DNA of 64,000 nt from Ulvibacter algarum (lineage in GTDB: Bacteria; Bacteroidota; Bacteroidia; Flavobacteriales; Flavobacteriaceae): assembly GCA_947488905.1 (NCBI GenBank), contig CANLBJ010000001.1, positions 124,001 through 188,000 on the forward strand. The letters are read 5' to 3'. Under the pieces are notes generated by a model, which had not been told where the DNA came from, did not search any database, and was given only the letters and a program-made list of their open reading frames with translations. Positions 6,698-62,211 of the stretch are shown here, piece after piece (the first letter of the stretch is position 1; every line of letters begins with the position of its first letter). The position numbers and the translations under genes are program-made.

Positions 6698-7072
6698 TGC
6701 CGAAATATTAACAACTTGAATGTTGTCACGTTTCATTTACTTTATTGTAAATATATTGAGTAGTACATATAAAACACTTCTTATCATTAAAAACAACTGC
6801 TACAAAGCTCATATTAGAGCCTCTAGAGTACAAACAACATAAACCTAACCTTCTAGTTGGCTAGTTATAAACTGATGAGTAAACAGTCTTAAATCCCTCG
6901 ACTATGTTAGAGTAGTGTCAATTACTATTATTTGTCTTGTACCTAAGTGCTAATCAATGAAACATTATAGTATATAAATAACATTTCCGAAGCAATTAAA
7001 GCATTAGTAATACACTAAAGGCAACAAAAAGTTAAACGTAATACAATACTATATTACTAAAATAAAGACATC
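6698..7072. other. Gene-free stretch between two facing terminators
   Basis: About 375 bases with stops in all frames and no ORF of note, bounded by a plus-strand terminator on the left and a minus-strand terminator on the right. I see no tRNA, no promoter with both boxes and no clear hairpin. It holds one copy of TTTCCGAAG at 6984-6992. It may be spacer or could encode a small RNA; the sequence alone does not decide. Confidence 0.5.
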
Positions 7073-7105
7073 AAAAAACCCCTAATGCTATTGCAAAAGG
7101 GGTTT
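7073..7105 (-). terminator. Rho-independent terminator of the adhesin/SprF/PorE operon
   Basis: The stem AAACCCCT (7076-7083) pairs with AGGGGTTT (7098-7105) and, read on the minus strand, is followed by a T run (the A run at 7073-7078). It lies 30 bases after the stop of the minus-strand OmpA-family gene. Confidence 0.88.
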
Positions 7106-7134
7106 CTTTAATTGGTTGGTTAATGGTATTGTTA

Positions 7135-9030
7135 CTATTGAGCAGTGATCGTAAATTCTGATCTTCTGTTTCTAGCATGTTGGTCATCAGTACAATTGTC
7201 ACCACAGTTGTAGATAGGAGAGTTTTCACCTCTTCCTACTCCTGATATTCTATTAGAACTAATTCCTTTAGAAATAATGTATTGAACTGTAGACTGTGCT
7301 CTTCTATTAGATAGCTTTAAGTTATAAGCATCACCAGCTCTATTATCTGTATGGCTATCTGCACGTACTACCATTTTAGGGTACTTTTTCATTAGGGCAA
7401 CTACTTTGTCTAATTCAAATGCAGCTTGAGGCTTAATATTATGTTTGTCATAGTCAAAATAGATAGGGTTTAATACAATTTTGTCTTCAACAACAATTTT
7501 CTCGATAGGTTGTAGAGCGATAGTTACACGAACATTCTCGTCATTACCAGCAGGAACATCCATAGAAGCACTCTCATAATCTTTCATTACCGCTTGAGAT
7601 ACATAAGCTACATCACAAGTAGTATCAAATGTAGTTGTACCGTTAGATACAGATGTTAATGTACCTACTTTGTTTTCCATTGTATCATAAAAATCAACTC
7701 TTGCTCCAGAGATAGGTTTTTTTGTGATTGCATCTATTACTACAACAGTAGCAGTTGACTCACATAATGGCTCTAACTGTTTAACTTTATAGATATCATC
7801 ACTTCCTTTTCCTCCTTTACGGTTAGAAGAAACAAATCCTTCTTGTGTATTACCATCAAAGATAAAAGCAAAATCATCATCTGTACTGTTAACTACATTC
7901 CCCATGTTTTTAACTTTTCCGAAGCCATTACCTTTTGCTTCTGCGTAAAAAACATCAAGACCTCCAAGACCTAAATGACCGTTACTAGAAAAATACATTG
8001 TTCCGTTACTATCAACGTATGGAAACGCATCTGATCCTTCTGTATTAATGCTTCCAACTACTGGTGTAGGATTACCAAATGTTCCATCTGCAAGAACGCT
8101 TACTTGGTAAATATCTGACATTCCTTGACCTCCTGGTCTATCACTTGAAAAATAAAGTGTTTTACCGTCAGGGCTTAATGCAGGGTGACCTGTAGAAAAC
8201 TCACTACTATTAAAAGGTGCTGGCTGTACGTCTTTCCAAACTCCATTTACATTTTCAGCAAAGTATAAGTTAATCTGGTTGATCCCTTCTTCATCTTTTT
8301 CATAATCTCCATCATCATAGTCATTACGGTCAAAATACATACGCTTACCGTCTTGAGTTACAATAGCATTTGCCTCATGGTACTTTGTGTTAACTTCACT
8401 ACCTAATAAGGTTGCGTTTTTTATTGCATTATCTCCTACTTTACCAGCTTTATAAAGATCTAAAAATGGTTCGTCATTCCAGTCATACGTTTTTCTTGCT
8501 GTGTTTCTTGCAGATGCAAAATAGAAGTCTTTACCTAGCATAAAACCTCCAAAATCTGAATATTTACTATTCAAGTCTGTCATATTAGTAGCAGAAAATT
8601 TTGCTTTTTTCTCAAGTAATTGAGGAAGATAATCAGGGTTCTTCAAGAACTCTGTAGCACGATTATCGTTTGGTTTCATTGCAGCAAACTTTTTCATAAA
8701 CTCATTAGACTCAGCATATTTACCATTAGCCTTAAGAGATTGTGCATAATTGAAAACCGTTTCTGCTTTCACGTTTCTATCTTTAACTACTCGCTTGTAG
8801 TATGTTTCAGCCTTTTTAGTATCATTTATAAAATAATAACTATTAGCTAATCGCTCGTAAACGTATCTGTCTGCTTTGTTCTTTTTAAGCAGTTTTTGAT
8901 ATTCGTTTGCTGCGTCTGTATAGGCTAAACGATCATAATAACCATCTGCCTTTTTTGTGTCTTTATTTTGAGCCATCATCGTGCTGGTGCTAACGGCTAC
9001 TAAGAGTAAGAAAGTAAATATTTTTTTCAT
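7135..9030 (-). CDS. PorE-like protein: TPR, beta-propeller, CarboxypepD_reg-like and OmpA domains
   Basis: I start this 631-residue protein at 9030 (MKKIFTFLLLVAVSTSTMMAQ), a clean signal peptide; the longer frame from 9114 would overlap the sprF-like gene. Domain order: TPR-type helices (about 25-130), a PD40/WD40-like propeller (about 150-430; repeats such as GHPALSPDGKTLYFSSDRPGG), a small beta domain in CarboxypepD_reg style (about 440-520), and an OmpA peptidoglycan-binding domain (about 525-631) with the Asp of ADSHTDNRAG and the downstream SNRRAQS arginines. This is the architecture of PorE (PG1058) of the type IX secretion system, which links outer-membrane components to peptidoglycan. 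It follows a PorP/SprF gene after 34 bases, a standard pairing. Confidence 0.9.
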   Translation of the reverse strand: MKKIFTFLLLVAVSTSTMMAQNKDTKKADGYYDRLAYTDAANEYQKLLKKNKADRYVYERLANSYYFINDTKKAETYYKRVVKDRNVKAETVFNYAQSLKANGKYAESNEFMKKFAAMKPNDNRATEFLKNPDYLPQLLEKKAKFSATNMTDLNSKYSDFGGFMLGKDFYFASARNTARKTYDWNDEPFLDLYKAGKVGDNAIKNATLLGSEVNTKYHEANAIVTQDGKRMYFDRNDYDDGDYEKDEEGINQINLYFAENVNGVWKDVQPAPFNSSEFSTGHPALSPDGKTLYFSSDRPGGQGMSDIYQVSVLADGTFGNPTPVVGSINTEGSDAFPYVDSNGTMYFSSNGHLGLGGLDVFYAEAKGNGFGKVKNMGNVVNSTDDDFAFIFDGNTQEGFVSSNRKGGKGSDDIYKVKQLEPLCESTATVVVIDAITKKPISGARVDFYDTMENKVGTLTSVSNGTTTFDTTCDVAYVSQAVMKDYESASMDVPAGNDENVRVTIALQPIEKIVVEDKIVLNPIYFDYDKHNIKPQAAFELDKVVALMKKYPKMVVRADSHTDNRAGDAYNLKLSNRRAQSTVQYIISKGISSNRISGVGRGENSPIYNCGDNCTDDQHARNRRSEFTITAQ

Positions 9031-9064
9031 TTGTGATGAATTTATTTTAAAGAAAAATGGTTTT

Positions 9065-9979
9065 TTAGAAGTATCTAGGTGAACGTAATGCCTTCTTGTT
9101 AAAGATAAGATCAAACGTTAGGATTACTTCGTGTGATGATGGAGCAACTACATTAATATCACTCGTTACCGCATCATATGCATAACCAATACGTATTGCT
9201 GGTGTTGCTTGAAAACCAACAAGACCACTAAATGAATCATCGAGTCTATAAGAAGCTCCTATTTCAAATTTATCGTAGAACAATGCGTTTATATTACCAT
9301 CAAATGATGTAGGTGCATCAAATGCAGACTTTACCATTACAGAAGGCTTTAACTTAAAGTTGTCGTTAACTTGAAACACATATCCGGCTGTACCAAAATA
9401 GTGATTAGTTTCAGAACCAAACTTAAGTCCGTTTTCTTCAAGGTGAACAGACTTTAACATGTTAGGTACAGAAAGACCTACATAGAAGTTATCTGTGTAT
9501 AAAAATGCACCGGCACCTACATTAGGGTAAGTAGCATTAACATCTTGAGAGAAAAAAGGATCATTGTCATCCTGTAATTCAAGATCAACTAATCCTACAT
9601 CATGAAATGTTGCTCCAGCTTTTAATCCTAAAGCAAGTTTTGTGTTTCCTCCTACTTGCAACGTGTAAGAGAAATCTGCATAAGCGTTTGTCTCACTTAT
9701 TGGTCCTAGTTCATCTTTTATCACAGAAAGACCAAGCCCTACATTATCACCAACAGGTGCGTGCCCTGAAAATGTAATAGTTTCTGGAGCTCCATCAAAA
9801 CCTGACCATTGCTTACGGTAAAGCGCGGTAAGCGACAATGCTTCTTTATTACCTGCATATGCCGGGTTTACGACATTCATGTTGTACATATACTGCGTGT
9901 ATTGCGGATCTTGCTGTGCTGATGCCAATTGGGCAGTAAATCCAACAATTAGGAGTACTAATAACGTTCGTTTTTTCAT
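9065..9979 (-). CDS. PorP/SprF family type IX secretion outer-membrane protein
   Basis: This 304-residue protein has a signal peptide cut near AQLASAQ and the diagnostic start of the mature chain, QDPQYTQYMYNMNVVNPAYAG, followed by RKQWSGFDGAPETITFSGHAPV. These motifs define the PorP/SprF family. The rest is an outer-membrane barrel with alternating strands, ending in a strand with terminal aromatic residues. SprF of Flavobacterium johnsoniae is needed to export and attach its partner adhesin SprB through the type IX system. Here two giant adhesin genes lie directly upstream (26 bases to the nearer one) and a PorE-like gene follows, so this copy probably serves those adhesins. Confidence 0.93.
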   Translation of the reverse strand: MKKRTLLVLLIVGFTAQLASAQQDPQYTQYMYNMNVVNPAYAGNKEALSLTALYRKQWSGFDGAPETITFSGHAPVGDNVGLGLSVIKDELGPISETNAYADFSYTLQVGGNTKLALGLKAGATFHDVGLVDLELQDDNDPFFSQDVNATYPNVGAGAFLYTDNFYVGLSVPNMLKSVHLEENGLKFGSETNHYFGTAGYVFQVNDNFKLKPSVMVKSAFDAPTSFDGNINALFYDKFEIGASYRLDDSFSGLVGFQATPAIRIGYAYDAVTSDINVVAPSSHEVILTFDLIFNKKALRSPRYF

Positions 9980-10005
9980 TATAGTTGCTTATTAATATTA
10001 GTCAA

Positions 10006-13000
10006 TTATTTGTTTAAGTAGATAAAACCTGTTAATGTTTCACCTTCTACTAAGTTTATTACATAGTAGTAATTACCTACTGGTAGGTCGCTACCGTCGT
10101 CTGCTTGTCCTCGCCATTCGTTTACATAATTTTCTAGTTCGAATACCGCACGACCGTGACGATTAAATATAGTTACTTTTTCTATACCAGGTTCAACACT
10201 TAAGAACTCTAAATCTAAAGAGTCATTAAGACCATCACCATCTGGCGAAATACCTTGAGTAATGATACAGTTTTCGTTATCAAAGAATCTTACAAAAATG
10301 TCATCTGATGCTAAACATCCTGCACCATTAACTTCTACTTGATATAAACCTCTTTCTGTGATTTCTATCGTTGGATTTGTTTCTCCAACTATCTCACCAC
10401 CATCTAAAAACCACTTATACGTTACTGCATTAGGGTCTGTCTCTGTAACTGTAGCTGTTAGTGTTTCTGTATCATTTGCGCATTTTACAACTACATCGCC
10501 AGAAGCATCCATTCTTGTTGCAGATACAACCACAACAGGTTGGTCTAATAATGTGATTGATACTTCATCTGTGTTAACACATCCTTCTATTGTAACTTCT
10601 AAAGAATACGTCCCAGAGGTTGTTACCACTATTGTAGGAGATGTTTCTCCCGTACTCCACAAGTAGGTTGCTAACGCAGGATCTTCACCATCTATTTCTG
10701 GAACGATTTCAAACGAATCTTCGCCACAGAATGATAAATCTCCTCCTATATCAACATTATAAGCTACCGCGTTAATAAAGATATCATCAGTGCCCATACA
10801 TCCACCACTTGAAGTTACCACTACACTATAAGTACCTTGTGCTGTGACAACAAGTGTAGCATTTGTTTCTGCAGCAAGCTCGGTACCATCTAATGACCAC
10901 TGATAGTTCACCATAGTTAAGTCTGCAATGTTTGTAGGTGTACCGTCAATAGTTATTGATCCACCATCGCATACTAAAATATCTGCTCCTAAATCCACTT
11001 CTGGAATAGGGAAGAACTCTACAAAAATGGTATCTGTTATTTCACAAGTAGTATTATTAAAAGTAACTGTTACTTCATAGTTTCCTGTTTCTGTAACAAC
11101 CAATTCTCCGTCAGTTTCTCCTGCAAGTACATCACCATCTTTAGTCCATACAATAGTTACATCATCAAACTGACCAGCATTTAACACAATTTCTTCACCT
11201 TCACAAAGTGCATCTCCACCAGAAATAGTTATATCTCCTCCTAGGTCTAAAGAACCTAAATCGAAACTTCCACCTGCTAAGAAAACAGCAGAGTCAAATG
11301 AAGCATCTGATCTATCACCAATAACAAGTTTTACGGTATAAGTTTCACCAACTTCTAATGGCACAGTTGCAGTAGTTAAAGTTGAAGTTAATCCATCATA
11401 CTCCACAGGTTGCGCATCTAAGTTGTCATCCCAATTACTAACATATAGGTCTGGGAAATAATCTACACCTTCTGTTTCTCCTCCACATAAGAAAGTATCT
11501 CTATGTATTGTAAAAGTACTTACAGGTACATTACTTGATCCTTCTATTGAAGCAATGTTTACACCTCCAAAAGGAGCTCCAGAAGTATCTGGAATACCTG
11601 GCCCCTTAACTAAAAAGGCAAAACCATCTCTAAACAAATCACTACACTCAAAATCATCTTCATATTCTTCAGATGCAAAAATGAAATCGAAAGTTACGAA
11701 TGGAATATTTGATGTAAACTCAAATTCAAATACTGTTGCATTCTGTGTTGGTACTGTAGTACCATATTGGTTATCTAAAATAGCTTGTAAATCTGTATCA
11801 CCTAACCATCCTGTTCCATTACCAGAAGTACCAGACTGACTGTTTGGTCCTTCTGCAGAATCTGCGAATCCTGATGATAAAATTATTCCGTCTTCTAATT
11901 CAAAATCTGTATTCCCCTTTTTAAAGTAACCCCAGCTTCGTTCTGCAATATTTGTTGTTCCTGAAGGGTTTTCTTGAAGGTTAGTAAAAGTTATATCTAT
12001 TGATCCACAACCACCTTGCTCTACAAATACTTGCTCTACAAGTTCTTCTGCAGTTAGCAACGTTTCAGGGTCATTAATACCGTTTACAATTATTGTATCT
12101 GCTCCTACATTAATACATATATTAAAGTCAATTTCTTGAAAAGGCACATTTCCGAAGCTATACACTCTAATGTAATATGTATCACCAATAATAAAATCAC
12201 TGCTTGTACTATTATTAGCATCACTACAGTACATTTCTGTGAGGTTATCACAATCTGGCCCTGTATAAAGTGAGTGTACTAAATCTGGAAAACCGTCTCC
12301 TACTATATCTTGAAGACTAATATTATGCACATTTGCAGTTGCTGTAAACTCAAACCAAACATCATCATCTGCTGTTCCTGGACAAGTGGATGTAACTCCA
12401 GAATCTGTTGCTCCTGTTACAGTACCAGCAGTTAAGATAGTACAAGAATCATCAGTATTTACTCCTGCCATTATTGCTGCATCACACTCATCATTCACCG
12501 GTGGTGGTGGTGGAGTAAAAGAAGCAATACATAAATCAAAAGTGGTCATATTTAATAGTGTGTTACCAAATGACCAAATACGTATATAATACGTCTCTCC
12601 TACCGTTAATCCTGTAACAAAACTGTCATTAGGATCATTACAAAAAAGTTGAGTTAAGTTATCACAGTCTGCACCTTCATATACTGCGTGAACAAGATCT
12701 GTTGTTCCTCCTGCGATATTTAACAGTTCAATTGTGTGAACTTGTGTAGTAGCTACAAAAGTATACCATACATCATCGTTTGCAGTCCCAACACAACCAT
12801 TAGCCTGATCTGATGTTGTTGCTCCAGCTAGGGTACCTGGATTTAATAAAGTACATTGATCATCTGCATTAACTAAAGCAGGTGTCGCTGCTAAATCACA
12901 GTTGTCATTAACCGGTGGTGGTGGTGGTGAAACACATGTGATCTCAATATTATAATTGCCAGTAGCTGCTCCAAAACCATTTATATAAAATAAATATTCT

Positions 13001-20200: not shown

Positions 20201-20234
20201 CTTCGGAAATATACAACCTTTAAAATTTCCGAAG
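20201..20234. repeat. Inverted pair of the CTTCGGAAAT element
   Basis: CTTCGGAAAT (20201-20210) and its exact reverse complement ATTTCCGAAG (20225-20234) face each other with a 14-base spacer between the divergent EEP and hflX genes. It could form a 10-bp hairpin in RNA or bind a dimeric or tetrameric protein. There is no T run, so it is not a terminator. Confidence 0.75.
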
Positions 20235-21675: not shown

Positions 21676-22479
21676 TTAAAGCTCTCTTTTAAATTTATAC
21701 CCTAACACCGCTTTTACATTTATGGAGTCAACTTGCTTGTAATTTGCATCAGCATCTTCAGCAAATGTAGGCGGTTCTAGATTTAACTCTTCGGCTTTTG
21801 CCTTGTAATACTCTTTTTTTAATGGGTGTGATGGATGCACGGCATTAAATATTTTGCCAAAGCTTTGTTGTTTTATTATTTCAGAAATAATCTCAATGCA
21901 ATCATCTCGATGAATCAAGTTTACTGGCGCACTACCACCACTTAATTCTTTTCTGCCTGCAAGAAACTTTACAGGTTGTCTTGAACCACCATACAACCCA
22001 CCAAAACGCACAATACTTGTTTGTAATCCAGTAGCATTAAAAAACAACTGTTCTGCCTGCAATAGTTGCTTACCACCTTCATTTTCTGGCTCAGGAAAAT
22101 CTCGCTCTGTCACAATACCTTGATCATCTCCATAAACAGAAGTACTACTAATAAAGATTACTTCGGAAACGTCACTAGCTTGAACCTCTGTTAAAAAATG
22201 AGACATCTTGCCCACATAATTTGATCCAGAATTGCGACGCAAACCAGGAGGTATCATAATAATTAAAATTTCAGCATTCTTTAGCAAACCTTGAGGAGCA
22301 CCTACTACACCTTCTTCTGTCATATCTACAGCATAAGCATCTATACCTTTTGCCTGCAGAGTAGTTGCTTTTTTTACTGTTGTAACAGAACCTTTAATAC
22401 GATAACCCCGCATCATTAACTTTTGAGCTAAGGGCATCCCTAACCAACCTAAACCTGCAATCGCTATTGTTTTACTCAT
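21676..22479 (-). CDS. NAD(P)-binding epimerase/oxidoreductase (YeeZ-like)
   Basis: This 267-residue Rossmann protein carries the dinucleotide-binding motif GLGWLG at 9-14, FISSTSVYG (about 109-117) in place of the usual SDR catalytic block, and VRFGGLYG (about 156-163). The overall layout is that of atypical extended SDRs of the YeeZ type, annotated as NAD-dependent epimerase/dehydratase family; substrates are unknown. Its ATG overlaps the stop of the upstream M28 peptidase gene by 8 bases (ATGAGTAAA), so translation is coupled to that gene. Both point to cotranscription but not to a shared pathway. Confidence 0.85.
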   Translation of the reverse strand: MSKTIAIAGLGWLGMPLAQKLMMRGYRIKGSVTTVKKATTLQAKGIDAYAVDMTEEGVVGAPQGLLKNAEILIIMIPPGLRRNSGSNYVGKMSHFLTEVQASDVSEVIFISSTSVYGDDQGIVTERDFPEPENEGGKQLLQAEQLFFNATGLQTSIVRFGGLYGGSRQPVKFLAGRKELSGGSAPVNLIHRDDCIEIISEIIKQQSFGKIFNAVHPSHPLKKEYYKAKAEELNLEPPTFAEDADANYKQVDSINVKAVLGYKFKREL

Positions 22480-24884: not shown

Positions 24885-24893
24885 TTTCCGAAG
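24885..24893 (+). repeat. TTTCCGAAG element upstream of the M28 gene
   Basis: Lies 47 bases upstream of the M28 peptidase start and 30 bases downstream of the zinc-ribbon gene stop, on the minus-strand transcript. Confidence 0.7.
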
Positions 24894-37885: not shown

Positions 37886-38028
37886 TTTGTGAAGATAGAA
37901 GTTTTATGTTTTAAAAAATTAGCTATAAAAAAATTGATTTAAGCGCTAACTAAAAAAACAGCCGCAATTAATGGATAAAAATAAAACAAAAACTTTAACA
38001 AAAATTCAACCTATCACATTTCCGAAGG

Positions 38029-39904: not shown

Positions 39905-42133
39905 TTGAAAAAACTCATTCTCATATTATTGCTTTTCCCGCTGTGTTTAGTTGCGCAAAAAGACACTACGCAAGACGTAAAGGTTGGTCTTGTGTTAAGT
40001 GGCGGTGGCGCAAAAGGTCTTGCGCACATCGGTGCCATTAAAGCTATTGAAGAAGCAGGAATACAAATAGACTATATAAGCGGTACAAGTATGGGTGCCA
40101 TAGTAGGCTCTCTCTATGCTGCTGGCTACAATGCTAAACAGTTAGACTCTATATTTAGCACTGTAGATTTTCAAACTCTTATTAATGATGAAGTCCCTCG
40201 AGGAGCAAAAACTTTTTATGAAAAAAAAGAAACTGACAGGTATGCGTTAACACTACCTTTTGATAATTTTAAAATAGGCTTCCCTTCTAGTTTATCTAAA
40301 GGACAAAATGTATACAACCTATTGTCAAACCTAACCTCACACGTAAGGGATTTTGATGATTTTAGCCAACTACCTATTCCGTTTTTATGTATTGCAACAG
40401 ATATAGAAACAGGCCAACCAGTTGTTTTAGAGTCTGGTTATTTACCAAAAGCCGTTGTAGCAAGTGGTGCTTTACCCACCCTTTTTAGCCCAGTTACTAT
40501 AGGTGATCGTGTTTTAATAGATGGAGGTGTAGTAAATAATTATCCCGTAGATGAATTACGCGCAAAAGGGATGGATATCATTATTGGAGTAGATGTACAA
40601 GATGACCTAAAAACCCGTGATAAAATTAACTCTGCCGTTCAGGTGATGGTACAGATTAACAATTTTGGCACTCAAAGCAACATGAAAGGTAAACGTGAAA
40701 AAACAGACGTTTATATTCAACCAGATATTCAAGATTACACTGTTGTTTCTTTTGATGAAGGGCGCAAAATTATAGACTCTGGTTACGAAGCCGCAACTGC
40801 CTACACAGATAAACTTGCAGAAATAGCAAGCAAACAACAAACTAAAAATCGTGACGAAGTCAAATTTCAGAAAGAACAATCCTATTATATAAGAGAGGTA
40901 GAAATAGAGGGTACAGACCGCTACACAAGGTCATACGTCTTAGGTAAATTAAAAATTAAAACCCCAGACCAAGTCACCTTCAAGAAATTTAATGACGGTA
41001 TAAACAACCTAGCTGCTACAGGCAATTATCAAAACATAGACTACCGTTTAATAAAAAATGATGACGGAACTCACAAAATAATATTTAAACTCACAGAGAG
41101 TGAAAACAGACTTCAGCTACGTTTTTCTGTTCATTATAACGACTTGTATAGATCTTCATTTTTAACAAATTTGACTAGAAAAAGATTATTTACAAATAAT
41201 GACATAGCCTCATTAGATGTTATTGTGGGTGATAATTTAAGGTACAGGGCAGATTATTATATAGACAAAGGGTATTACTGGAGTATAGGTTTATCTTCAG
41301 AATATAACTTTTTTGATAAAGACGTGCCTATAGGTTTAATGTCTTCGGAAATATCCTTGGACACCCCAACTCTTAATGAAATTGAAATAGAATATTCTGA
41401 CTACACAAACAGACTTTATTTTGAAACCATTTTTCAAAGAAGTTTCTTGATTGGTCTTGGAGCAGAACATAAACACCTTAAATATCTCTCTAAAAATATA
41501 GGCGTAGACAAAAATCAAAATCTGCAAACCGTATTTGAAAATACTAATTACTACAATGCATTAGGTTACTTAGTTTTTGACAGTTTAAATGACACCTACT
41601 TTCCCACAAAAGGTTTTATTTTTCAGGGAGATTTTAAATTATATCTCTTTGCCCAAGGTAGAAATGAAGATTTTGAAAGCTTCTCTATTGCAAAAAGCAG
41701 GTTTGGGTATGCCCACAAAATAGTAGACAACTTATCTTTTTTTATAAATAGTGAAGGTGGTTTTAAAATAGGAGGAAACGACACCTCGTCTTTTGACTTT
41801 TTCTTAGGAGGTTATGGCTTTAAGCAGGTAAATAACATATTACCTTTTTATGGATATGAAGCCCTTTCTTTACGTGGTGATACCTATCTTAAAACCTCAT
41901 TATCTGTAGACTGGGAGTTTGCAAGAAAAAACTATCTTTCTGTTTTCGGGAACATTGCAAACATAGGAGATGATCTTTTTTCTACAAAACAATGGATAGA
42001 CGGAGTAGACTACAGTGGGTATGGTCTTGGGTATGGTCTAGAGACCCCATTAGGACCATTAGAAGTAAAATACACCTACTCTCCAGAGCGCGACACTACA
42101 GAATGGCATATAGCTGCTGGTTTTAAGTTTTAG
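39905..42133 (+). CDS. Patatin-like phospholipase fused to POTRA and outer-membrane barrel (PlpD/BamA-like)
   Basis: This 742-residue protein starts at TTG (39905) with the signal peptide KKLILILLLFPLCLVAQ. The patatin domain (about 27-310) has the oxyanion loop SGGGAKGLAHIG, the nucleophile S62 in GTSMG and the partner D206 in DGGVVNNYP. A POTRA-like domain follows (about 325-400), then a 16-strand-type barrel of the Omp85 family to the C-terminal Phe. The layout is that of type Vd autotransporters such as PlpD, although release of the patatin domain is not certain in Bacteroidota. It probably acts on outer-membrane or external phospholipids. Its transcript may include or follow uvrC (55-base gap). 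Confidence 0.93.
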   Translation: MKKLILILLLFPLCLVAQKDTTQDVKVGLVLSGGGAKGLAHIGAIKAIEEAGIQIDYISGTSMGAIVGSLYAAGYNAKQLDSIFSTVDFQTLINDEVPRGAKTFYEKKETDRYALTLPFDNFKIGFPSSLSKGQNVYNLLSNLTSHVRDFDDFSQLPIPFLCIATDIETGQPVVLESGYLPKAVVASGALPTLFSPVTIGDRVLIDGGVVNNYPVDELRAKGMDIIIGVDVQDDLKTRDKINSAVQVMVQINNFGTQSNMKGKREKTDVYIQPDIQDYTVVSFDEGRKIIDSGYEAATAYTDKLAEIASKQQTKNRDEVKFQKEQSYYIREVEIEGTDRYTRSYVLGKLKIKTPDQVTFKKFNDGINNLAATGNYQNIDYRLIKNDDGTHKIIFKLTESENRLQLRFSVHYNDLYRSSFLTNLTRKRLFTNNDIASLDVIVGDNLRYRADYYIDKGYYWSIGLSSEYNFFDKDVPIGLMSSEISLDTPTLNEIEIEYSDYTNRLYFETIFQRSFLIGLGAEHKHLKYLSKNIGVDKNQNLQTVFENTNYYNALGYLVFDSLNDTYFPTKGFIFQGDFKLYLFAQGRNEDFESFSIAKSRFGYAHKIVDNLSFFINSEGGFKIGGNDTSSFDFFLGGYGFKQVNNILPFYGYEALSLRGDTYLKTSLSVDWEFARKNYLSVFGNIANIGDDLFSTKQWIDGVDYSGYGLGYGLETPLGPLEVKYTYSPERDTTEWHIAAGFKF

Positions 42134-43371: not shown

Positions 43372-43380
43372 CTTCGGAAA
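43372..43380 (-). repeat. CTTCGGAAA element after hmgA
   Basis: Reverse orientation of TTTCCGAAG, 19 bases after the hmgA stop. A second, related element ATTTCAGAAAC lies at 43447-43457 in the same gap, upstream of the next promoter. Confidence 0.65.
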
Positions 43381-46677: not shown

Positions 46678-46721
46678 CAAAAAATTTGAGACTAACAAAC
46701 ACTCATTTAAAAACAAACATT

Positions 46722-49484
46722 ATGAAACAAATTTTACTTGCTGTATTCTTATTAGCAGGAATCGCAGTATCTGCACAAGGTACTGTAACCGGAATATTGA
46801 TGGACACCGAAACTGGGATGCCATTATCTGGAGCTAACGTTATTGAAACAGGCACTAATAATGGTGCTATTTCAGATTTTGATGGAAACTTTTCATTAAA
46901 GGTATCTTCTAATCAAGGTACAATTACTGTCTCTTACATTGGGTATGAGAACAAAACGATGCGTTTTAACCTTGCAGGAGGTAGCGTAGATTTAGGTAGA
47001 GTACAAGTTGCACAAGATGCAAACTCTTTAAATGAAGTAGTAATTAAAGCTACTGGTGTATTAGATATTGCTCAGGATCGTAAAACCCCAGTTGCAGTTT
47101 CTACAATTAGCGCTGCAGAGATCCAAACAAAATTAGGATCTCAAGAATTTCCAGAAATCTTAAACAATTCTCCTTCTATCTATGCAACTAAGCAAGGTGG
47201 TGGTTATGGAGATGCTCGTATTAATATTCGTGGTTTTGACACTCAAAACTCTGCAGTATTGATTAACGGTGTACCGGTTAATGATATGGAAAATGGTCAA
47301 GTATACTGGAGTAACTGGGCTGGATTAAGTGATGTGGCTTCTGCAATACAAGTTCAACGTGGTTTAGGATCTTCTAAACTTACGGTTTCTTCTGTAGGTG
47401 GTACTATTAACGTAGTAACAAGAAGTGCAGAAAGAAATCAAGGTGCTTTCTTAAGTGGAAGTGTTGGTAACGATGGTTATGTAAAAACAATCGCATCTTA
47501 TGCATCAGGTCTTACTGAAAGTGGATGGTCAGGGTCTTTTTTATTAAGTAACACAAGAGGTAATGGTTATGTTGATGGAACTCGTTTTCACGGTCAGAAC
47601 TACTATGCTGCTTTAGGGTACAAAGCAAGTGAAAAAAGTGCTTTTGAGCTTACAATAACAGGAGCACCACAACAGCACAATCAAAGAGGACGTGGTATTG
47701 AGATTAGTGAATTTCTTAAATATGGTGAGAATGGTGAGCCAGACATTAAGTATAATCCTAATTGGGGTGTCTTAGACGGAAGAGAATATACTTTTTCTGG
47801 AAACTTTTATCACAAACCTGTTATCAGTTTAAATTGGGATTATGAATTATCTGATGCAACTACACTATCTACCGTAGCATATGCTTCTTTTGGTAGAGGT
47901 GGTAGTATAGGTGAAATAGGACGTGTAGATGGTAAAAGACAATATGACACTCGTTTACAGACTGCAGATGGTATTACAGATGTAGGCCTTATACGTGATT
48001 ACAACCAAGGTTTACCAGTTGTTATTGCTGGAGAAACTGTACAGAGAGAACAAACTAACGGTATATTTTTAAACACAACTAGTGATGACAGATCTGCTCA
48101 AAATGGTATCACACGTAGGTCTTCAATAAACTCTCATAACTGGTATGGGGTTATTGCTAACTTAGGTACAGAATTAAATGACAACTTAAATCTTGATTTT
48201 GGAGTAGACTTAAGACAATACACTGGTTTTCACTACAGAAGAGTAAATGAACTATTAGGAGGAGATGCTTATTTAGCCGTAGACAATCAAAATACACCAA
48301 ACGAAATTTATAGAAACGAGTATGAGGCAAATAAGCCTTGGTGGGTTTTTGGAAACATTGATGATGAAGACAAAATAGATTACTACAATAAAGGATTTGT
48401 AACTTGGGCTGGAGTATTTGGTCAATTAGAGTACACAAGTGATGATGAACGTTACAACTTGTTTTTACAGGGTGCTGCTTCAAATCAAGGTTTTGCACGT
48501 GAAGAATTTTTTAACGAAGTTCCTGCAGAAAAGACAGATACAGAAAATCTTTTAGGAGGTAACATCAAAGCAGGTATTAATTTCAATATTGATGATCACC
48601 ACAACGTGTTTGCAAACGGAGGTTATTTCTCTAAGCAACCATTGTTTGATGCTGTATTCATTAATTTCGGAAACAACCTAAATCCAGAATTAATAAATGA
48701 AAAGATCATTGGTACAGAAATAGGATACGGTTTTAGAAGTTCAAAATTTAAGGCTAATGTTAACCTTTACAGAACTAGCTGGGCAGATAGATATGAGTCT
48801 ATTTCTCAAACATTTGATGTCTTAGGCAACAATAATGACGAGACTGTTCCAGAAGACATACGTGAAGACGATGATGTACGTGGTACAGCTAACCTTCAAG
48901 GTATAAAGCAAGTGCATATGGGTGTTGAAGTTGACGCTCGTCTTAAAATTACAGACCGCATAGGCGTTAGAGGTATGGTTTCTGTAGGAGACTGGCAATA
49001 TGAAGGAAATGTATCTGCTGCATTCTTAGATGCAGACCAGACTTTAATTCCTGGCTTTGATGAGCAAACATTATATCTTGACGAAGTAAAAGTTGGTGAT
49101 GCTGCTCAGTTTACTGCAAGTTTAGGTATTGATGTAGAGATTGTTAAAGGTCTTACTATAGATGCAAACTACAGAAGAGCAGATAACCTGTATGCTGCTA
49201 TTGATGCTACAGATTTTGGCTCTGAAGATAACGACGGGTCACTTGAGTTACCATCTTTTGGTTTACTTGATGCAGGTCTTGGATTCTCAGTACCTTTCTT
49301 AGACAACACAATGGATTTTAGATTTAATATGAATAACGTGTTAGACGAAACTTACATTTCAGAATCTGACACAAACAGATTTGCTCAAGAAGGTGATGAT
49401 ACGTATGATGGTATTTCAACTAGTAACAGAGTATTTTTTGGACTAGGAAGAACATGGAACGCAGCAGTTCGTTTTAACTTCTAG
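46722..49484 (+). CDS. TonB-dependent outer-membrane receptor with CarboxypepD_reg-like domain
   Basis: This 920-residue protein starts at 46722 (MKQILLAVFLLAGIAVSAQ). Domains: signal peptide (1-20), CarboxypepD_reg-like domain (about 21-95: GTVTGILMDTETGMPLSGANV, ISDFDGNFSLKV), plug (about 105-235: GGYGDARINIRGFDTQNSAVLINGVPVNDMENG), and a 22-strand barrel ending RFNF. Such receptors import large or scarce substrates using TonB energy. No SusD-like partner is next to it. Neighbouring genes do not show the substrate. It ends with a strong terminator. Confidence 0.93.
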   Translation: MKQILLAVFLLAGIAVSAQGTVTGILMDTETGMPLSGANVIETGTNNGAISDFDGNFSLKVSSNQGTITVSYIGYENKTMRFNLAGGSVDLGRVQVAQDANSLNEVVIKATGVLDIAQDRKTPVAVSTISAAEIQTKLGSQEFPEILNNSPSIYATKQGGGYGDARINIRGFDTQNSAVLINGVPVNDMENGQVYWSNWAGLSDVASAIQVQRGLGSSKLTVSSVGGTINVVTRSAERNQGAFLSGSVGNDGYVKTIASYASGLTESGWSGSFLLSNTRGNGYVDGTRFHGQNYYAALGYKASEKSAFELTITGAPQQHNQRGRGIEISEFLKYGENGEPDIKYNPNWGVLDGREYTFSGNFYHKPVISLNWDYELSDATTLSTVAYASFGRGGSIGEIGRVDGKRQYDTRLQTADGITDVGLIRDYNQGLPVVIAGETVQREQTNGIFLNTTSDDRSAQNGITRRSSINSHNWYGVIANLGTELNDNLNLDFGVDLRQYTGFHYRRVNELLGGDAYLAVDNQNTPNEIYRNEYEANKPWWVFGNIDDEDKIDYYNKGFVTWAGVFGQLEYTSDDERYNLFLQGAASNQGFAREEFFNEVPAEKTDTENLLGGNIKAGINFNIDDHHNVFANGGYFSKQPLFDAVFINFGNNLNPELINEKIIGTEIGYGFRSSKFKANVNLYRTSWADRYESISQTFDVLGNNNDETVPEDIREDDDVRGTANLQGIKQVHMGVEVDARLKITDRIGVRGMVSVGDWQYEGNVSAAFLDADQTLIPGFDEQTLYLDEVKVGDAAQFTASLGIDVEIVKGLTIDANYRRADNLYAAIDATDFGSEDNDGSLELPSFGLLDAGLGFSVPFLDNTMDFRFNMNNVLDETYISESDTNRFAQEGDDTYDGISTSNRVFFGLGRTWNAAVRFNF

Positions 49485-49492
49485 TCTTTTTT

Positions 49493-49549
49493 CTTCGGAA
49501 ATATGAAGCCCTTGCTATATGGTTCAACCATCAAGCAAGGGCTTTTTTT
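49493..49549 (+). terminator. CTTCGGAAA element followed by terminator
   Basis: CTTCGGAAA lies at 49493-49501, nine bases after the receptor stop. Directly after it, AAGCCCTTGCT (49506-49516) pairs with AGCAAGGGCTT (49534-49544) and runs into a T tract: a good rho-independent terminator. Confidence 0.9.
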
Positions 49550-51247: not shown

Positions 51248-54109
51248 ATGAAACAACTTTTACTTACTGTTTGTTTAACGGTCTTTACTTTATTCACAGT
51301 GTCAGCACAAGAAGCTGTCGTGAAGGGTAGGATTATAGATTCAAACTCGAATGAACCACTACCCAATGTAGATGTTCAAATTTTAGAAAGTGTATTTAGC
51401 ACTAAAACTAATGCAAAAGGTCTTTTTGCTTTTACTAGTACAGAGCTCCCTCAAGGAGAGCAAGTAATGGTAGTAACAAAAACTGGGTATCTTTCGCAAC
51501 AAATTAAAATTGTTGTACAAAACAACAGCCCTATAGATCTTAACCCTATACTCTTAGAGTTAGATCTAACAGAACTTCAATCTCAGATAGGAGTTATTAG
51601 CTTATCTGACAATGAGTTAGATCAAGATGACGGTACATCTTTTAACATCTCAGGTTTATTACAAGCATCACGTGATGCTTTTTTAAATGCCGCATCTTTT
51701 GATTTTAGCGCAACGTTTTTTCGCCCTAGAGGTTTAGACAACGCTAACGGTAAAGTACTTATCAATGGTCTTGAAATGAATAAAATGTATAGCGGTCGCC
51801 CACAATGGGGAGACTGGGGAGGCCTTAATGACATGCAACGTAACAGAGAGTTCTCAATGGGTTTAACCCCTAATGATTATGCTTTTGGTGATGTAGCAGG
51901 AACTACAAACATCATCATGCGAGCTTCACAAAACCGAGAAGGCGGTAGTATAAGTTATGCCGCTGGTAATCGTAGTTATACTGGTCGTATAATGGGCTCA
52001 TATAATAGCGGAGTCAATCAAAATGGCTGGTCTTACTCTGTACTTTTATCTCGCCGTTTTGGAGAAGAAGGATATCAAGAAGGGACTTTATATGACGCAA
52101 ATTCATTTTTTGCTTCCGTAGAGAAAAAATTAAATGACGATCATAGTTTAAACTTTACAGCTTTTTACACCCCTAACCGTCGTGGTCGTTCTACTGCGAT
52201 AACTCAAGAGGTAAAAGACCTTAAAGGCATTCAATACAACCCAAACTGGGGTATGCAGGATGGTGAGATTAGAAATAGCCGAACAAGAGAAATTGAAGAA
52301 CCAATCTTTATGTTAAACCACTTTTGGGACATAAACGAGAAATTAAAGTTAAATACAAACGTTGGTTTTCAAACCGGTTCAATAAAAAATAGCCGTATTG
52401 ACAATAATGGTACAACCTTAATTGGAGAACCTGGTAGCCAGTATGCAGGAGGTGGTGCTAGTAACCCACTTGCAAACTATTATCAAAATCTTCCTAGTTA
52501 CGCACTGTCTAGAAACGAAACCCCAACACCTATAGATTATCAAAGAGCTTACACAGCAGAGCAGGAGTTTATCAATGATGGTCAAATAGACTGGACAGAT
52601 ATCTACAGAGCAAATTTTGATGCCTTCGGAAATGCTAAAGCTTCAACTTATGTTATTCAAGATGATGTAAACCAAGACACACAAATCTCTTTTAACTCTA
52701 TTTTAAGCGCAGACCTAACAGAGAACATTACCTTTAATGGTAACATTTCTTATAGAAGCTTAAAAAGTGAAAACTACGCACAAATTAAAGATCTACTTGG
52801 TGGTACTGGATATTTAGATATTGACAACTTTGCAGAAGCAGCATCTGGAGACGCAGGTGAAGAGACAGATTTAGATAACTTAGGACAGAGTGATATTAAT
52901 AACATTAACCGTATTGCAGGTGAAGGCGATCGCTACAAATACAACTATATTATTAATGCTAACGATTTAAGCGCATTTGCTCAAGCTCAATTTAAGTACA
53001 AACAAGTAGACTTTTACGCAGCTTTATCTGGAGGAACAACAAGTTACCAAAGAGATGGACTATATGAGAATAGTAATTTTTTAGGTGATGCTTCTTTTGG
53101 TCTAAGTGAAAAATTGAATTTCACAAACTTTGGTATAAAAGGGGGCGCAACCTATAAAATTACAGGACGTCACTTAATTGATGTAAACTTAGGTTTGATA
53201 CAAAAAGCACCAAGTGTTAGAAACTCTTTTAGCAACTCACGTGTAAGTAATGCATCTACTATTGGTCTTGAAGAAGAAAAAATCACAAGTACAGATATTA
53301 GCTACATCTTTAAATCTCCTATAGTTAAAGCGAGGTTTACTGGTTTTTATAGTGGCTTTAAAGACGGTACAGACATTGGCTTTTATTTTACAGAAAACGT
53401 TTCTGGACAAGGTTCAGATGAAGACTTCTTTGTTCAAGAGGTAATGACAAATATTGAAAGAAGACATGTAGGTGGAGAGTTAGGTATAGAAGCACAAGTA
53501 ACCCCAACTATTAAGTTATTAGGAGCTGCATCTGTAGGTCAATACACTTATTCAAACAATCCAAATCTATATTTAGAGAGTGACGATCTTGACGGTCCTC
53601 TTTCTTTTGGAGACGGTACTGCAAAACTTAAAGACTATCACGTTGCTGGAGGTCCAGAAAGAGCAGCACAGATAGGATTTGAATATCGCGACCCAGATTT
53701 CTGGTGGTTTGGTGCTAGTTTGAACTTTTTCTCAAATGCATATTTAGATATAAACAACTTAGCTAGAACAGATAACTTTAGTTCAGATTTTGACGGTCAA
53801 CCATTTAGTGACTATGATGCAGATATTGCAAAAGACTTATTAAAGCAAGAAAAGTTTGACAGCTATAACCTAGTAAATCTTAAAGGAGGTAAATCTTGGC
53901 GAATTAAAGGATACTACGTTGGCTTCTTCGCTACAGTTAATAATATTTTTGACACTGAATATAAAACAGGAGGTTTTGAACAAGGTAGAAAAACAAACTA
54001 CAGAGATCTTGCAGAAGATACTTCATTGCAAAATGGAAGAGTGTTTGGTCCTAGATATTTCTTCGGAACAGGAACCAACTACTATGTAAGTGCTTACGTA
54101 AGATTTTAA
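51248..54109 (+). CDS. TonB-dependent receptor with CarboxypepD_reg-like domain
   Basis: This 953-residue protein has a signal peptide ending FTVSAQ. CarboxypepD_reg-like domain (about 22-105: VKGRIIDSNSNEPLPNVDVQI), plug with FRPRGLDNANGKVLINGLEMNKMYSGRPQWGDWGGLNDM (about 155-195), and a long barrel ending YYVSAYVRF. The plug segment is less canonical than in most receptors (it lacks the usual IRGxxS block). The downstream gene is a DUF5689 lipoprotein (34 bases on), and the divergent gene is a secreted EEP enzyme: together a receptor, surface lipoprotein and degrading enzyme, like a SusCD-type utilisation locus. Confidence 0.92.
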   Translation: MKQLLLTVCLTVFTLFTVSAQEAVVKGRIIDSNSNEPLPNVDVQILESVFSTKTNAKGLFAFTSTELPQGEQVMVVTKTGYLSQQIKIVVQNNSPIDLNPILLELDLTELQSQIGVISLSDNELDQDDGTSFNISGLLQASRDAFLNAASFDFSATFFRPRGLDNANGKVLINGLEMNKMYSGRPQWGDWGGLNDMQRNREFSMGLTPNDYAFGDVAGTTNIIMRASQNREGGSISYAAGNRSYTGRIMGSYNSGVNQNGWSYSVLLSRRFGEEGYQEGTLYDANSFFASVEKKLNDDHSLNFTAFYTPNRRGRSTAITQEVKDLKGIQYNPNWGMQDGEIRNSRTREIEEPIFMLNHFWDINEKLKLNTNVGFQTGSIKNSRIDNNGTTLIGEPGSQYAGGGASNPLANYYQNLPSYALSRNETPTPIDYQRAYTAEQEFINDGQIDWTDIYRANFDAFGNAKASTYVIQDDVNQDTQISFNSILSADLTENITFNGNISYRSLKSENYAQIKDLLGGTGYLDIDNFAEAASGDAGEETDLDNLGQSDINNINRIAGEGDRYKYNYIINANDLSAFAQAQFKYKQVDFYAALSGGTTSYQRDGLYENSNFLGDASFGLSEKLNFTNFGIKGGATYKITGRHLIDVNLGLIQKAPSVRNSFSNSRVSNASTIGLEEEKITSTDISYIFKSPIVKARFTGFYSGFKDGTDIGFYFTENVSGQGSDEDFFVQEVMTNIERRHVGGELGIEAQVTPTIKLLGAASVGQYTYSNNPNLYLESDDLDGPLSFGDGTAKLKDYHVAGGPERAAQIGFEYRDPDFWWFGASLNFFSNAYLDINNLARTDNFSSDFDGQPFSDYDADIAKDLLKQEKFDSYNLVNLKGGKSWRIKGYYVGFFATVNNIFDTEYKTGGFEQGRKTNYRDLAEDTSLQNGRVFGPRYFFGTGTNYYVSAYVRF

Positions 54110-54143: not shown

Positions 54144-56330
54144 ATGAAAAATTTAAAACTAACTCCATTTATCGCAATGCTTTTTGCATTAGCATTTGTT
54201 GTATCCTGTGTAAAGGATGATGACTTTGAAGTACCAGACACGAGTGTTTCTGAAGTTAATATAGATGGTACAATTATAGATATTGATGCCCTTTATGACT
54301 CTTGGGCACAGAATGTAACTGCTAATCAAGAAAACGCACTTACTTTTGAAGAAACAGACCAATACATATCTGGTTATGTAGTTTCTAGTGACGAGTCTGG
54401 TAATTTCTTTGAAGAAGTAGTTTTACAAAACGCAATAGAAAACCCTACAAGAGGGGTTAAAGTATTACTAGATGTAAACCCTTTATTCAACAAATATGAA
54501 ATAGGTAGAAAAGTTTATATAAAACTTGAAGGCCTTACAGCTGGTTTTGGTAATGGTGTATTTACGCTAGGGCTTAGAGGTAGCTCAGATGATAGATTTG
54601 AAAAAATTACTTCTGCTCAAGAAGAAGAATACTTTATAAGAGACCCAGAAGTTGCTGTTATGGTTCCTGCTGTTAAAACTCTGAGCCAACTTACAGATGC
54701 AGATGTAAACACATTAATTCAATTACCAGCTGCACAATTTACTTCTGGTCAAATAGACTTAAGTTTTGCAAATGAAGCAGGCGATGAGTTTGACGGTGAT
54801 AGATTAGTAGAGAGCTGTAGTGCAGATGGAGGAGATATTCTTTTTCAAACAAGTACATTTTCAGACTTTAAAGCAATAAACATCCCTGATGGTTCTGGTA
54901 CACTTACAGCGGTATTGTCAAAAGATTTTTTTGGTGAAAACTTTGCCTTAAACGTAAGAGACACAAATGACTTAGTTTTTGATGGTGAGCGTTGTGAATC
55001 TAGTCCTTTAAACCCTAATCTTACAGCAACCACTACTTTTTCTGCAGCAATAGCTCGCTTTACAAATGCAGGTGGGTATGCAGAATTTAGTACAGATGAA
55101 GCAGAGCTTATTATTGAAGGGTACGTAGTATCTAGTGATAAAGATGGTAACTATTTTGAAGAATTAGTAATACAAAATTCTATTGACGGAAACGACTTAA
55201 GCGCTAACGACCCTAGATTAGGTCTGCGTGTTGCAATAGACCGTGGTGATTTATACCTAAACCTACCAGTAGGGCGTAAAGTTTATATTAAATTAAATGG
55301 TCTTGCAATAGATGAAGATGCAGGTAATATCACTATTGGATATCCTAACGTTTCAGAAATAGAAAAAATTCCAGATGGTGTTGCAGATTTATTCGTGATA
55401 CCAGGAGAAGTAATCGCAGATATCACACCAAAGCTGACTACAGTAAACGGTCTTTCTACAAATGACTTAAACACACTTGTACAGTTTGAAGGTATGCAGT
55501 TTACCGCAGACAACCTAGGGCTAACTTACGCTGGTGAAGCTACAGATGGTTTTGATGGAGAACGTCAATTAGAAAGCTGTGATAACACAGGAGACATTAG
55601 ATTTTTTACAAGCTCATTTGCTAGCTTTAAATCACTTTTATTACCAGAAGGTGTAGGTAGTATTAGTGCTATTTACACTAATAACTTTTTTGGTGATGAG
55701 CGTATTTTAGAAATTAGAGCAACAGATGATATTCAGTTTACAAACCCTGAACGTTGTGATCCACCTATAGTAGATTGTGGTACAGCAGCTTCAGAGGGAG
55801 CAAATATTTTATTCTCAGAAAATTTTGAAACTCAAACAGTAGGTGCCCCTCTTTCTGGTAACGGAATGGTTAACTATCAAGAAGCAGGAACACAAGCTTG
55901 GACTTCTTTTTCAAGCACTAGTACAAACGCATCTATTGGAATCTCTGCAAGTATAGGCTCTTTTAATAGTGGTGATGACAGCACTGTATCTTGGCTTGCT
56001 TTTCCAGAGATTGATTATGATGCGCAAGACGGCGAGACATTACGTTTTATGAGCTCAAACAGCTTTTCTGATGGTAGTACATTAGAAATACTTTTTTCAA
56101 GCGATTGGGACGGTGTTGCAGCAAACATACCTAATGCTACTTGGGCTATATTACCTGCGGCTTCTATTGTTGCAGATGACGCCTTTTTTGGAGACTTTTT
56201 TGATAGTGGTATAGTAGATTTATCTTGTGTAGATGGTACAGGACATATCGCCTTTAAATATGTAGGTAGCGGAATCCCAGAATTTGATGGTACATACGAG
56301 TTAGACGAAATAGAAATTCGCTCTAATTAA
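54144..56330 (+). CDS. DUF5689 surface lipoprotein with C-terminal choice-of-anchor-J-like domain
   Basis: This 728-residue lipoprotein (lipobox FVVSC, Cys near 23, followed by Asp-rich VKDDD, a surface-sorting style often seen in Bacteroidota). It holds two tandem DUF5689 repeats (about 60-285 and 305-535) with the matching blocks QYISGYVVSSDESGNFFEEVVLQNAIE and IIEGYVVSSDKDGNYFEELVIQNSI, each an OB-like domain. The C-terminal domain (about 545-728: ILFSENFETQTVG... ELDEIEIRSN) looks like choice-of-anchor J. DUF5689 proteins replace SusD beside some TonB receptors. It should capture substrate at the surface for the receptor encoded just upstream. Confidence 0.9.
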   Translation: MKNLKLTPFIAMLFALAFVVSCVKDDDFEVPDTSVSEVNIDGTIIDIDALYDSWAQNVTANQENALTFEETDQYISGYVVSSDESGNFFEEVVLQNAIENPTRGVKVLLDVNPLFNKYEIGRKVYIKLEGLTAGFGNGVFTLGLRGSSDDRFEKITSAQEEEYFIRDPEVAVMVPAVKTLSQLTDADVNTLIQLPAAQFTSGQIDLSFANEAGDEFDGDRLVESCSADGGDILFQTSTFSDFKAINIPDGSGTLTAVLSKDFFGENFALNVRDTNDLVFDGERCESSPLNPNLTATTTFSAAIARFTNAGGYAEFSTDEAELIIEGYVVSSDKDGNYFEELVIQNSIDGNDLSANDPRLGLRVAIDRGDLYLNLPVGRKVYIKLNGLAIDEDAGNITIGYPNVSEIEKIPDGVADLFVIPGEVIADITPKLTTVNGLSTNDLNTLVQFEGMQFTADNLGLTYAGEATDGFDGERQLESCDNTGDIRFFTSSFASFKSLLLPEGVGSISAIYTNNFFGDERILEIRATDDIQFTNPERCDPPIVDCGTAASEGANILFSENFETQTVGAPLSGNGMVNYQEAGTQAWTSFSSTSTNASIGISASIGSFNSGDDSTVSWLAFPEIDYDAQDGETLRFMSSNSFSDGSTLEILFSSDWDGVAANIPNATWAILPAASIVADDAFFGDFFDSGIVDLSCVDGTGHIAFKYVGSGIPEFDGTYELDEIEIRSN

Positions 56331-61725: not shown

Positions 61726-61899
61726 CTTAATTTATTTCACATAAATTATATGGTTTCTGTTTTAAATATTTAACCCATTTAAAGATTAAATATTTAAGTA
61801 AAAAAAAGACCTTATTACTGTTATACTTAGGTTTTGATTAATAACACCACCATAAATTTATTATTAAACAAACTATCATTAAATCCTCTTCAAAAACAA

Positions 61900-61930
61900 T
61901 TGCACACCAATATCAAAACACCTACTTTTG
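61900..61930 (+). promoter_or_regulatory. feoA promoter
   Basis: TTG (61900-61902) and TACTTTTG (61923-61930) are 20 bases apart, a full match to the Bacteroidota promoter. The leader to the feoA ATG at 61958 would be about 20 nt. No clear Fur-box palindrome is recognised. Confidence 0.72.
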
Positions 61931-61957
61931 CCTTGTTTAAAATCAATCTAAATAATA

Positions 61958-62182
61958 ATGCTAACAATTGCTACTTTAAAAAAAGGACAAAGAGCTACTA
62001 TCTTAGAGTTTTCTGTAGATGTGGTTCCACTAAAATTACTAGAGATGGGTTGCCTACCTGGTAATGAAGTAGAATTGGTACAAATAGCACCTTTTCAAGA
62101 CCCTTTATACTTAAATATTAACGGGAGTCACCTAGCAATTAGAAAAGAAACTGCAGAAAAAATTGAGGTAAAACTCATTTAA
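61958..62182 (+). CDS. feoA: FeoA, ferrous iron transport accessory protein
   Basis: This 74-residue SH3-like FeoA domain protein carries LKKGQRATILEF, the block LKLLEMGCLPGNEVELVQIAPFQDPLYLNINGSHLAIRKETAEKIEV, matching FeoA family length and motifs. FeoA supports the FeoB ferrous iron transporter in the inner membrane. It stands 91 bases before feoB, which also has its own -7 box. A conflicting frame (61834-62064) overlaps it and lacks these motifs. Confidence 0.94.
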   Translation: MLTIATLKKGQRATILEFSVDVVPLKLLEMGCLPGNEVELVQIAPFQDPLYLNINGSHLAIRKETAEKIEVKLI

Positions 62183-62202
62183 ATAAATTTAAGTATTGCC
62201 TT

Positions 62203-62211
62203 TTTCCGAAG
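62203..62211 (+). repeat. TTTCCGAAG element between feoA and feoB
   Basis: Lies 20 bases after the feoA stop and 48 bases upstream of the feoB -7 box. Confidence 0.65.

Follow-up and report, generated by a model that had tools for sequence, protein, structure and literature searches.

To our knowledge, sequence-specific DNA uptake has been established only in the Pasteurellaceae and the Neisseriaceae, both with type IV pili. In the latter family, the DNA uptake sequence (DUS) is read by a pilin, and related genera have variant DUS words (dialects). The present study concerns a nine-base motif, written TTTCCGAAG (plus strand) or CTTCGGAAA (minus strand) with ATTTCCGAAG given as its core, in the genome of Ulvibacter algarum (G000; 3,548,518 bases, 35% GC in the part read). 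It was noticed in a 64-kb stretch, C1 124001-188000, referred to as the window. Its enrichment, distribution, flank architecture, association with one clade and partial conservation with turnover, together with the presence of homologues of transformation genes, were observed directly and lead us to regard it, by analogy with these systems, as probably the core of a DNA-uptake sequence.

The uptake signal sequence (USS) of Haemophilus influenzae and other Pasteurellaceae resembles the Ulvibacter motif in having a short core, hundreds to thousands of copies without a general orientation bias in the genome, and genic as well as intergenic copies, one orientation being commoner in reading frames (PMC2346458). 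The DUS is similarly a dispersed word with an excess of one orientation within genes (PMC2346458). On the other hand, the USS core (AAAGTGCGGT) is unrelated and belongs to another phylum, and the DUS (ATGCCGTCTGAA) also differs in sequence.

The closest described machinery is that of Riemerella anatipestifer, in which the adjacent genes RA0C_RS04915 and RA0C_RS04920 are essential for natural transformation, along with ComEC, DprA, ComF and RecA; the apparatus was shown by transposon mutants, and in the model proposed by its authors the lipoprotein serves as the DNA-binding component and the barrel as the importer (PMC8459023). U. algarum has an adjacent barrel and DUF5689 lipoprotein in the window, and its genome also encodes members of the ComEC and DprA families. 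A difference is that no uptake sequence was established for R. anatipestifer; the k-mers tabulated for this species, R. columbina and F. johnsoniae in PMC7965970 consist only or nearly only of A/T, e.g. AAAATAAAA. R. columbina favours its own DNA (PMC7965970). Among the matches listed from the open-licence literature, there was no report of an uptake sequence in Bacteroidota, or of the motif as a genomic element.

Abundance and anatomy of the motif

Exactly 13 exact copies were found in the window, seven as TTTCCGAAG and six as CTTCGGAAA. All of the copies listed in a sequence-only reading of this DNA exist, one of them (given as 38029) lying ten bases away at 38019, and independent gene calls returned the same split, eight between genes and five within genes. 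The copies, with their state in the congener G076, are:

6984..6992, plus strand: motif copy TTTCCGAAG, intergenic; not alignable with G076
7916..7924, plus strand: motif copy within a gene; 4 mismatches in G076
12149..12157, plus strand: motif copy within a gene; not alignable with G076
20201..20209, minus strand: motif copy, intergenic between divergent genes, left half of a close inverted pair; not alignable with G076
20226..20234, plus strand: motif copy, intergenic, right half of the inverted pair 20201-20234; not alignable with G076
22161..22169, minus strand: motif copy within a gene; 3 mismatches in G076
24885..24893, plus strand: motif copy, intergenic; not alignable with G076
38019..38027, plus strand: motif copy, intergenic, 28 bases 5' of a gene with UvrC domains (uvrC); exactly kept in G076
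41343..41351, minus strand: motif copy within a gene; 5 mismatches in G076
43372..43380, minus strand: motif copy, intergenic; not alignable with G076
49493..49501, minus strand: motif copy, intergenic, 8 bases past the stop of open reading frame 46686-49484; not alignable with G076
52624..52632, minus strand: motif copy within the outer-membrane barrel gene; 2 mismatches in G076
62203..62211, plus strand: motif copy, intergenic; not alignable with G076

The numbers expected in the window were 0.43, 0.32, 0.18 and 0.08 under Markov models of orders 0, 1, 2 and 3; models of orders 4 to 6, with 1.4 to 13 expected, already incorporate the motif. When one mismatch was allowed, 29 matches were found; dinucleotide shuffles averaged 12.3, and none of 100 reached 29. 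In the whole genome, the motif occurred 817 times (409 and 408 by strand), compared with 58 (32 and 26) for the same word reversed. In C1 1-800000, where it was the most over-represented 9-mer, there were 211 copies, against 1.8 expected (order 3). The genome-wide count proposed as a check by the sequence-only reading therefore lay far above, and not near, the Markov expectation.

Genes in these 800 kb were called with a simple codon-likelihood caller (635 genes, 86.5% coding). Within genes lay 127 of the 211 copies (0.18 per kb), and the density per kb was about 4.4 times higher between genes. The intergenic preference claimed earlier is thus real, but genic copies are also in large excess: in 20 synonymous-codon shuffles their mean number was 2.4 and at most 4, against 127 (both strands, all frames), an enrichment of about 54-fold, so that the motif is not an intergenic feature as such.

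The copies share a flank pattern, present in intergenic and weaker in genic copies. The base preceding the nine-base word is A in 78% (98 sites), and the pattern consists of T at about -17 to -14, A at -12 to -10, T at -7 to -5, A at -4/-3 and A at +10 to +14. The two upstream T blocks lie about 9 bp apart, and the A/T tracts are roughly one helical turn apart. A/T tracts about one helical turn apart also flank the USS core. The information in the flanks was 4.5 bits, or 5.0 when read from the opposite strand, where the preceding A counts. Of 16 similarly frequent 9-mers taken as controls, 12 are free of overlap with the motif and its variant, and their flanks contained at most 1.05 bits; the remaining four coincide with the motif or overlap one of these words. 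Beyond about 20 bp, the flanks share nothing. Among the options left by the sequence-only reading, the evidence as a whole favours an uptake-like sequence, and these unshared outer flanks make a longer dispersed element unlikely; a repetitive extragenic palindrome or miniature inverted-repeat transposable element was rejected because the flank profiles lacked homology over a longer element. We propose a tag of about 25-30 bp, with a consensus of about TTTT-n7-tTTAA-n-ATTTCCGAAG-n-AAwAA, in which ATTTCAGAAR is a tolerated variant.

The excess of single mismatches of ATTTCCGAAG was concentrated at three positions: the first A (28 to T, 19 to G and 4 to C; 0.3-0.7 expected each), the second C (40 to A and 24 to T; 3.4 expected each) and the first A of AAG (37 mismatched in all; 2.2 expected). 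Small excesses were found elsewhere, e.g. the second A to G (5 vs 0.2) and the first T to A (3 vs 0.3). The fact that few positions tolerate a mismatch suggests a recognised site. A second word, ATTTCWGAAA, occurred 104 and 56 times in its two forms (5.0 expected each) and has flank features in common with the main word, whereas the intermediate word ATTTCCGAAA was rare (2); it may be a variant of the same signal and is treated as such here. In the window, ATTTCAGAAA/TTTCTGAAAT, probably also a variant of this signal, was found 15 times (0.4 expected; e.g. 4273, 21878, 26430, 30973, 43447 and 49997), some copies being at or directly past gene ends.

Conservation was counted in blocks 73.6% identical to G076 (62,891 aligned own positions). 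Six of 13 alignable copies were exactly kept (4/11 genic and 2/2 intergenic) and the other seven had changed. Baselines were 9.2% for any genic 9-mer, 6.7% for any intergenic one and 8.0% for words matched in composition (p=0.0003 against the last). Copies that are partly kept and often gained or lost are expected under a drive such as uptake bias, and less so for fixed regulatory sites. The conservation of intergenic copies, which had been proposed as a check, was therefore found at both alignable sites, but only one of the eight intergenic copies in the window could be aligned. One 12-kb block (own C1 260969-272876, L044, outside the window) was left out of this count; with it, 8/16 copies were exact against a baseline of 17-19%. 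This block is 94.4% identical to its G076 counterpart at a different map position (C1 about 1005622-1017541, converted coordinates), which suggests a recent exchange between the species; of its three motif copies in U. algarum, two recur exactly in G076, and one of its genes encodes a 2228-aa polyunsaturated-fatty-acid-synthase-like protein.

Placement, orientation and rival explanations

The 83 copies in classifiable gaps were distributed over co-directional (52; 0.84 per kb), convergent (13; 0.85 per kb) and divergent (18; 0.69 per kb) gaps, one further intergenic copy being unclassified; these similar densities indicate no preference for promoter or terminator gaps. The orientation along the chromosome was even (48 plus and 50 minus in the first 400 kb; 106 and 105 in 800 kb), and the balance held on either side of a GC-skew switch near 400 kb, which answers the earlier call for a test of strand bias relative to replication. 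Relative to genes, the orientation was uneven, with CTTCGGAAA in the sense strand in 79 genic copies vs 48, and one orientation commoner in co-directional gaps (35 vs 17; p=0.018). The traits by which uptake sequences are recognised were thus found: an excess of copies, no polarity, genic and intergenic occurrence, independence of position, and a commoner orientation in reading frames. Together with the stringent core, phased flanks, clade variants and turnover, this dispersed, non-polar placement, indifferent to gene position, leads to the reading as an uptake sequence, and we know of no other class of element with all these traits together.

An explanation that we consider rather unlikely is that the motif is the binding site, in either orientation, of a clade-specific chromosome-organising (nucleoid) protein, the phased A/T tracts aiding bending. 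Non-polar copies dispersed over the part read, phased A/T flanks and association with a clade would all suit such a protein; however, a stringent nine-base core, the genic enrichment of about 54-fold and turnover at 7/13 sites would, in our judgement, be unusual for it, and no candidate protein came to light, no search having been aimed at one.

It appears improbable that the motif acts inside the cell as a recombination or self-marking signal, a non-polar Chi-like site protecting or recombining the cell's own DNA, as over-representation along the chromosome and within genes might suggest. Chi and the FtsK-orienting polar sequences (KOPS) act in one orientation relative to replication, and A-tract phasing and an intergenic excess are not Chi features. 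Since the copies are even across the skew switch and not co-directional with replication, polar sites of either type were rejected, and the Chi-like option of the sequence-only reading is disfavoured.

A regulatory or RNA function of the motif, as a transcription-factor site, terminator or RNA signal, has very little probability. In favour of this are the higher density between genes, the commoner orientation in co-directional gaps, and three close pairs (<60 bp) in 800 kb, all inverted, which could form hairpins. But 3.3 close pairs in any orientation were expected by chance, most copies (127/211) are genic, and neither convergent (terminator) nor divergent (promoter) gaps have an excess. Consequently, an intrinsic terminator (inverted pairs at the chance number and no convergent-gap enrichment, the T run not being scored) and a transcription-factor regulon (genic copies and no divergent-gap excess) were both rejected. 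Inverted-repeat copies of the DUS prompted a terminator hypothesis in the Neisseriaceae (PMC2346458), which differs from the chance number of close pairs in Ulvibacter.

Finally, a by-product of codon usage or base composition can be practically dismissed: although a common frame of CTTCGGAAA reads Phe-Gly-Lys/Asn (translated by eye), the synonymous-codon shuffles fell far short of the genic copies, and 46 intergenic copies were found in the first 400 kb against 0.2-0.4 expected from intergenic composition.

Distribution among relatives

Genomes were compared by the ratio of the motif to the reversed word, a rough control of which the median over 199 genomes of the family was 0.70 and not 1; a high ratio on small counts (G022, 29/5; G181, 30/11) means little. 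Fewer motif copies than reversed controls were found in 136 of the 199, and a ratio of at least 2 in 24, including G022 and G181. In a sample of 196 genomes of the order, including 15 other families, no genome outside Flavobacteriaceae reached a similar enrichment; with counts of 100 or more, ratios went up to 3.2 (G323, 147/46). In one family of this sample (f5), TTTCCGAAG moderately outnumbered the reversed word, several genomes lying between 2 and 3 and some at about 2.5-3.2 (e.g. G323, G343 and G375).

As a proxy for kinship, the identity of isoleucyl-tRNA synthetase (IleRS) to that of the window genome was used in 80 chosen genomes, of which 75 were compared (the own genome was omitted, as were G062, G080, G085 and G194 with a partial or split match). 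The 15 nearest genomes by full-length IleRS (79-87%) all had ratios of 1.8-10.5, while the other 60 had a median of 0.84, with seven at 2 or above. The motif therefore marks one clade and is sporadic outside it (e.g. G007, G045, G058 and G100, and one locus of Arcticiflavibacter luteus, L123, with nine motif copies in 23 kb). An exception is G194, in which an IleRS identity of 81% over 539 residues goes with a ratio of 0.97, so that the rule for the clade is not a strict one. Marixanthomonas, Pukyongia and Marinirhabdus are among the closest named genera in IleRS, with 80-81% identity in the best segment.

The form of the site differs among genomes. Phased A/T tracts are found in U. algarum and partly in G076 (16 sites); G063 has the downstream A tract only, and in G012, G101 and G007 they are weak or absent. 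In G063, G012, G101 and G045, the core TTCCGAAG was 9-11 fold above the synonymous null and the preceding A was not dominant, which suggests a dialect-like difference. In G007, TTTCCGAAG was 2.9-fold (6 vs 2) and TTCCGAAG 4.4-fold above this null.

No clear rival dispersed word was found in 16 samples of 20 kb from motif-poor genera, three shorter stretches having been left aside. This length is too small for certainty, as the motif itself did not rank first in two of three pieces of that size from the own genome. Apparent local repeats were seen in the samples of G072, G087 and G174. In that of G087 (C1 1-20000, L078), the palindrome GTGATCAC occurred 86 times over both strands and ACGACAGACG 25 times, probably reflecting a large repetitive gene or array. 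The first 100 kb of G010 (C1 1-100000, L061-L065) lacked TTTCCGAAG; a long palindrome built around CGCTTTCGCGAAAGCG (often TTCCG...CGGAA) was present there in 17 copies, 10 of them between genes. The core of this palindrome had genome-wide counts of about 590 in G010 and about 500 in G190, and may be a different uptake-type or HIP1-like word. A second over-represented dispersed word in the same 100 kb was CTTAGTTTC/AGAAACTAAG. In several other genera, the palindrome CTTTCGCGAAAG, among the matches listed, mostly formed one local cluster of few copies (G012 C18; G102 C1 61-112 kb; G078 C1 2.83-2.84 Mb; G087 C1 2.54-2.56 Mb), a clustering that suggests a parS-like centromere.

Transformation-gene homologues and the proposed uptake reading

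Two adjacent genes in the window are of particular relevance to the uptake reading:

51248..54109, plus strand: 953-aa outer-membrane barrel-like protein with a carboxypeptidase-regulatory domain (Pfam PF13715/PF13620; from sequence)
54144..56330, plus strand: 728-aa lipoprotein with two DUF5689 domains (PF18942, E=3.4e-101) and a choice-of-anchor J domain

On the basis of domains and gene order, the barrel is assigned as a homologue of RA0C_RS04915 and the lipoprotein as that of RA0C_RS04920. The link to R. anatipestifer rests in addition on the name of the NCBIfam model NF052645 (M949_1556 family), M949_1556 being a gene of that species (PMC12566107). With this model the lipoprotein scored 303 bits, below the cut-off of 475, while it was over the cut-off with NF038128, and a lipoprotein-like N-terminus was read by eye. 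It is a candidate surface DNA receptor. Relatives of the barrel (E<=1e-40) were present in 80/80 genomes of the family tested, and the ComEC and DprA families in the own genome and all 20 tested.

In the proposed mechanism, a surface receptor of the transformation machinery would prefer to bind and import the tag of about 25-30 bp. Since fragments with the tag would enter the cell and recombine more frequently, copies would build up and spread, in either orientation, to any site where they are compatible with the protein or promoter. Import probably proceeds through the pilus-independent machinery of the Flavobacteriaceae, i.e. the barrel and DUF5689 lipoprotein of the window with ComEC and DprA elsewhere in the genome. 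More tentatively, and with less than even confidence, we suggest that the tag is read by the barrel/lipoprotein pair itself (SusC/D-like: a TonB-receptor-like barrel and a surface DUF5689 lipoprotein) and not by a type IV pilus.

Several observations weigh against the uptake reading. All of the uptake-sequence systems that we know of use a type IV pilus, and no match to the pilus ATPase family PF00437 was over the cut-off in the own genome. In Pasteurellaceae, by contrast, uptake is via this pilus (PMC7965970). The machinery does not predict the motif, since the DUF5689 family was found in 182/199 genomes of the family and a ratio of at least 2 in 24/199, and similarity of the barrel was unrelated to the motif when IleRS similarity was accounted for (partial rho 0.00; 75 genomes). 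Intergenic copies were not clearly enriched in G063 (2/34), G101 (1/22), G012 (5/28) or G045 (0/9). Among the five of 13 window copies alignable with G076, only that at 38019 was kept. A gene-end bias of genic copies was looked for and not found, unlike in Pasteurellaceae; such a bias does not define the class, however, because Neisseria also lacks it (PMC2346458).

PF00437 (type IV pilus/type II secretion ATPase) was over the cut-off in 39/199 genomes, 37 of them with E below 1e-119. It was not over the cut-off in the motif-richest genomes, nor in G076, G012, G063, G039, G101, G027, G007 or G045, and passed in the motif-elevated G079, G090, G096, G114 and G156. None of the 17 genomes without DUF5689, many of which are small, had a ratio of at least 2 (highest 1.6); with DUF5689 in 182/199, this association is uninformative. 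An association of the barrel sequence with the motif was likewise rejected, as it vanished once phylogeny was accounted for.

If the tag is indeed read by the barrel/lipoprotein pair, sequence-specific uptake would have arisen independently for a third time, with dialects among genera, and the case would show what is general in the evolution of uptake tags. The unexplained preference of R. columbina for self-DNA would become testable, and tagging of donor DNA would provide a tool to transform marine flavobacteria that are hard to engineer.

Sequence searches of the barrel and lipoprotein against solved structures gave no match for either, and the structure of the lipoprotein predicted from the single sequence had a mean predicted local distance difference test (pLDDT) score of 31.8. 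In G076, among the matches listed (two counted), a DUF5689 match was found in a shorter frame of 482 aa, compared with the two-domain protein of the window; the architecture of the putative receptor may therefore differ within the genus.

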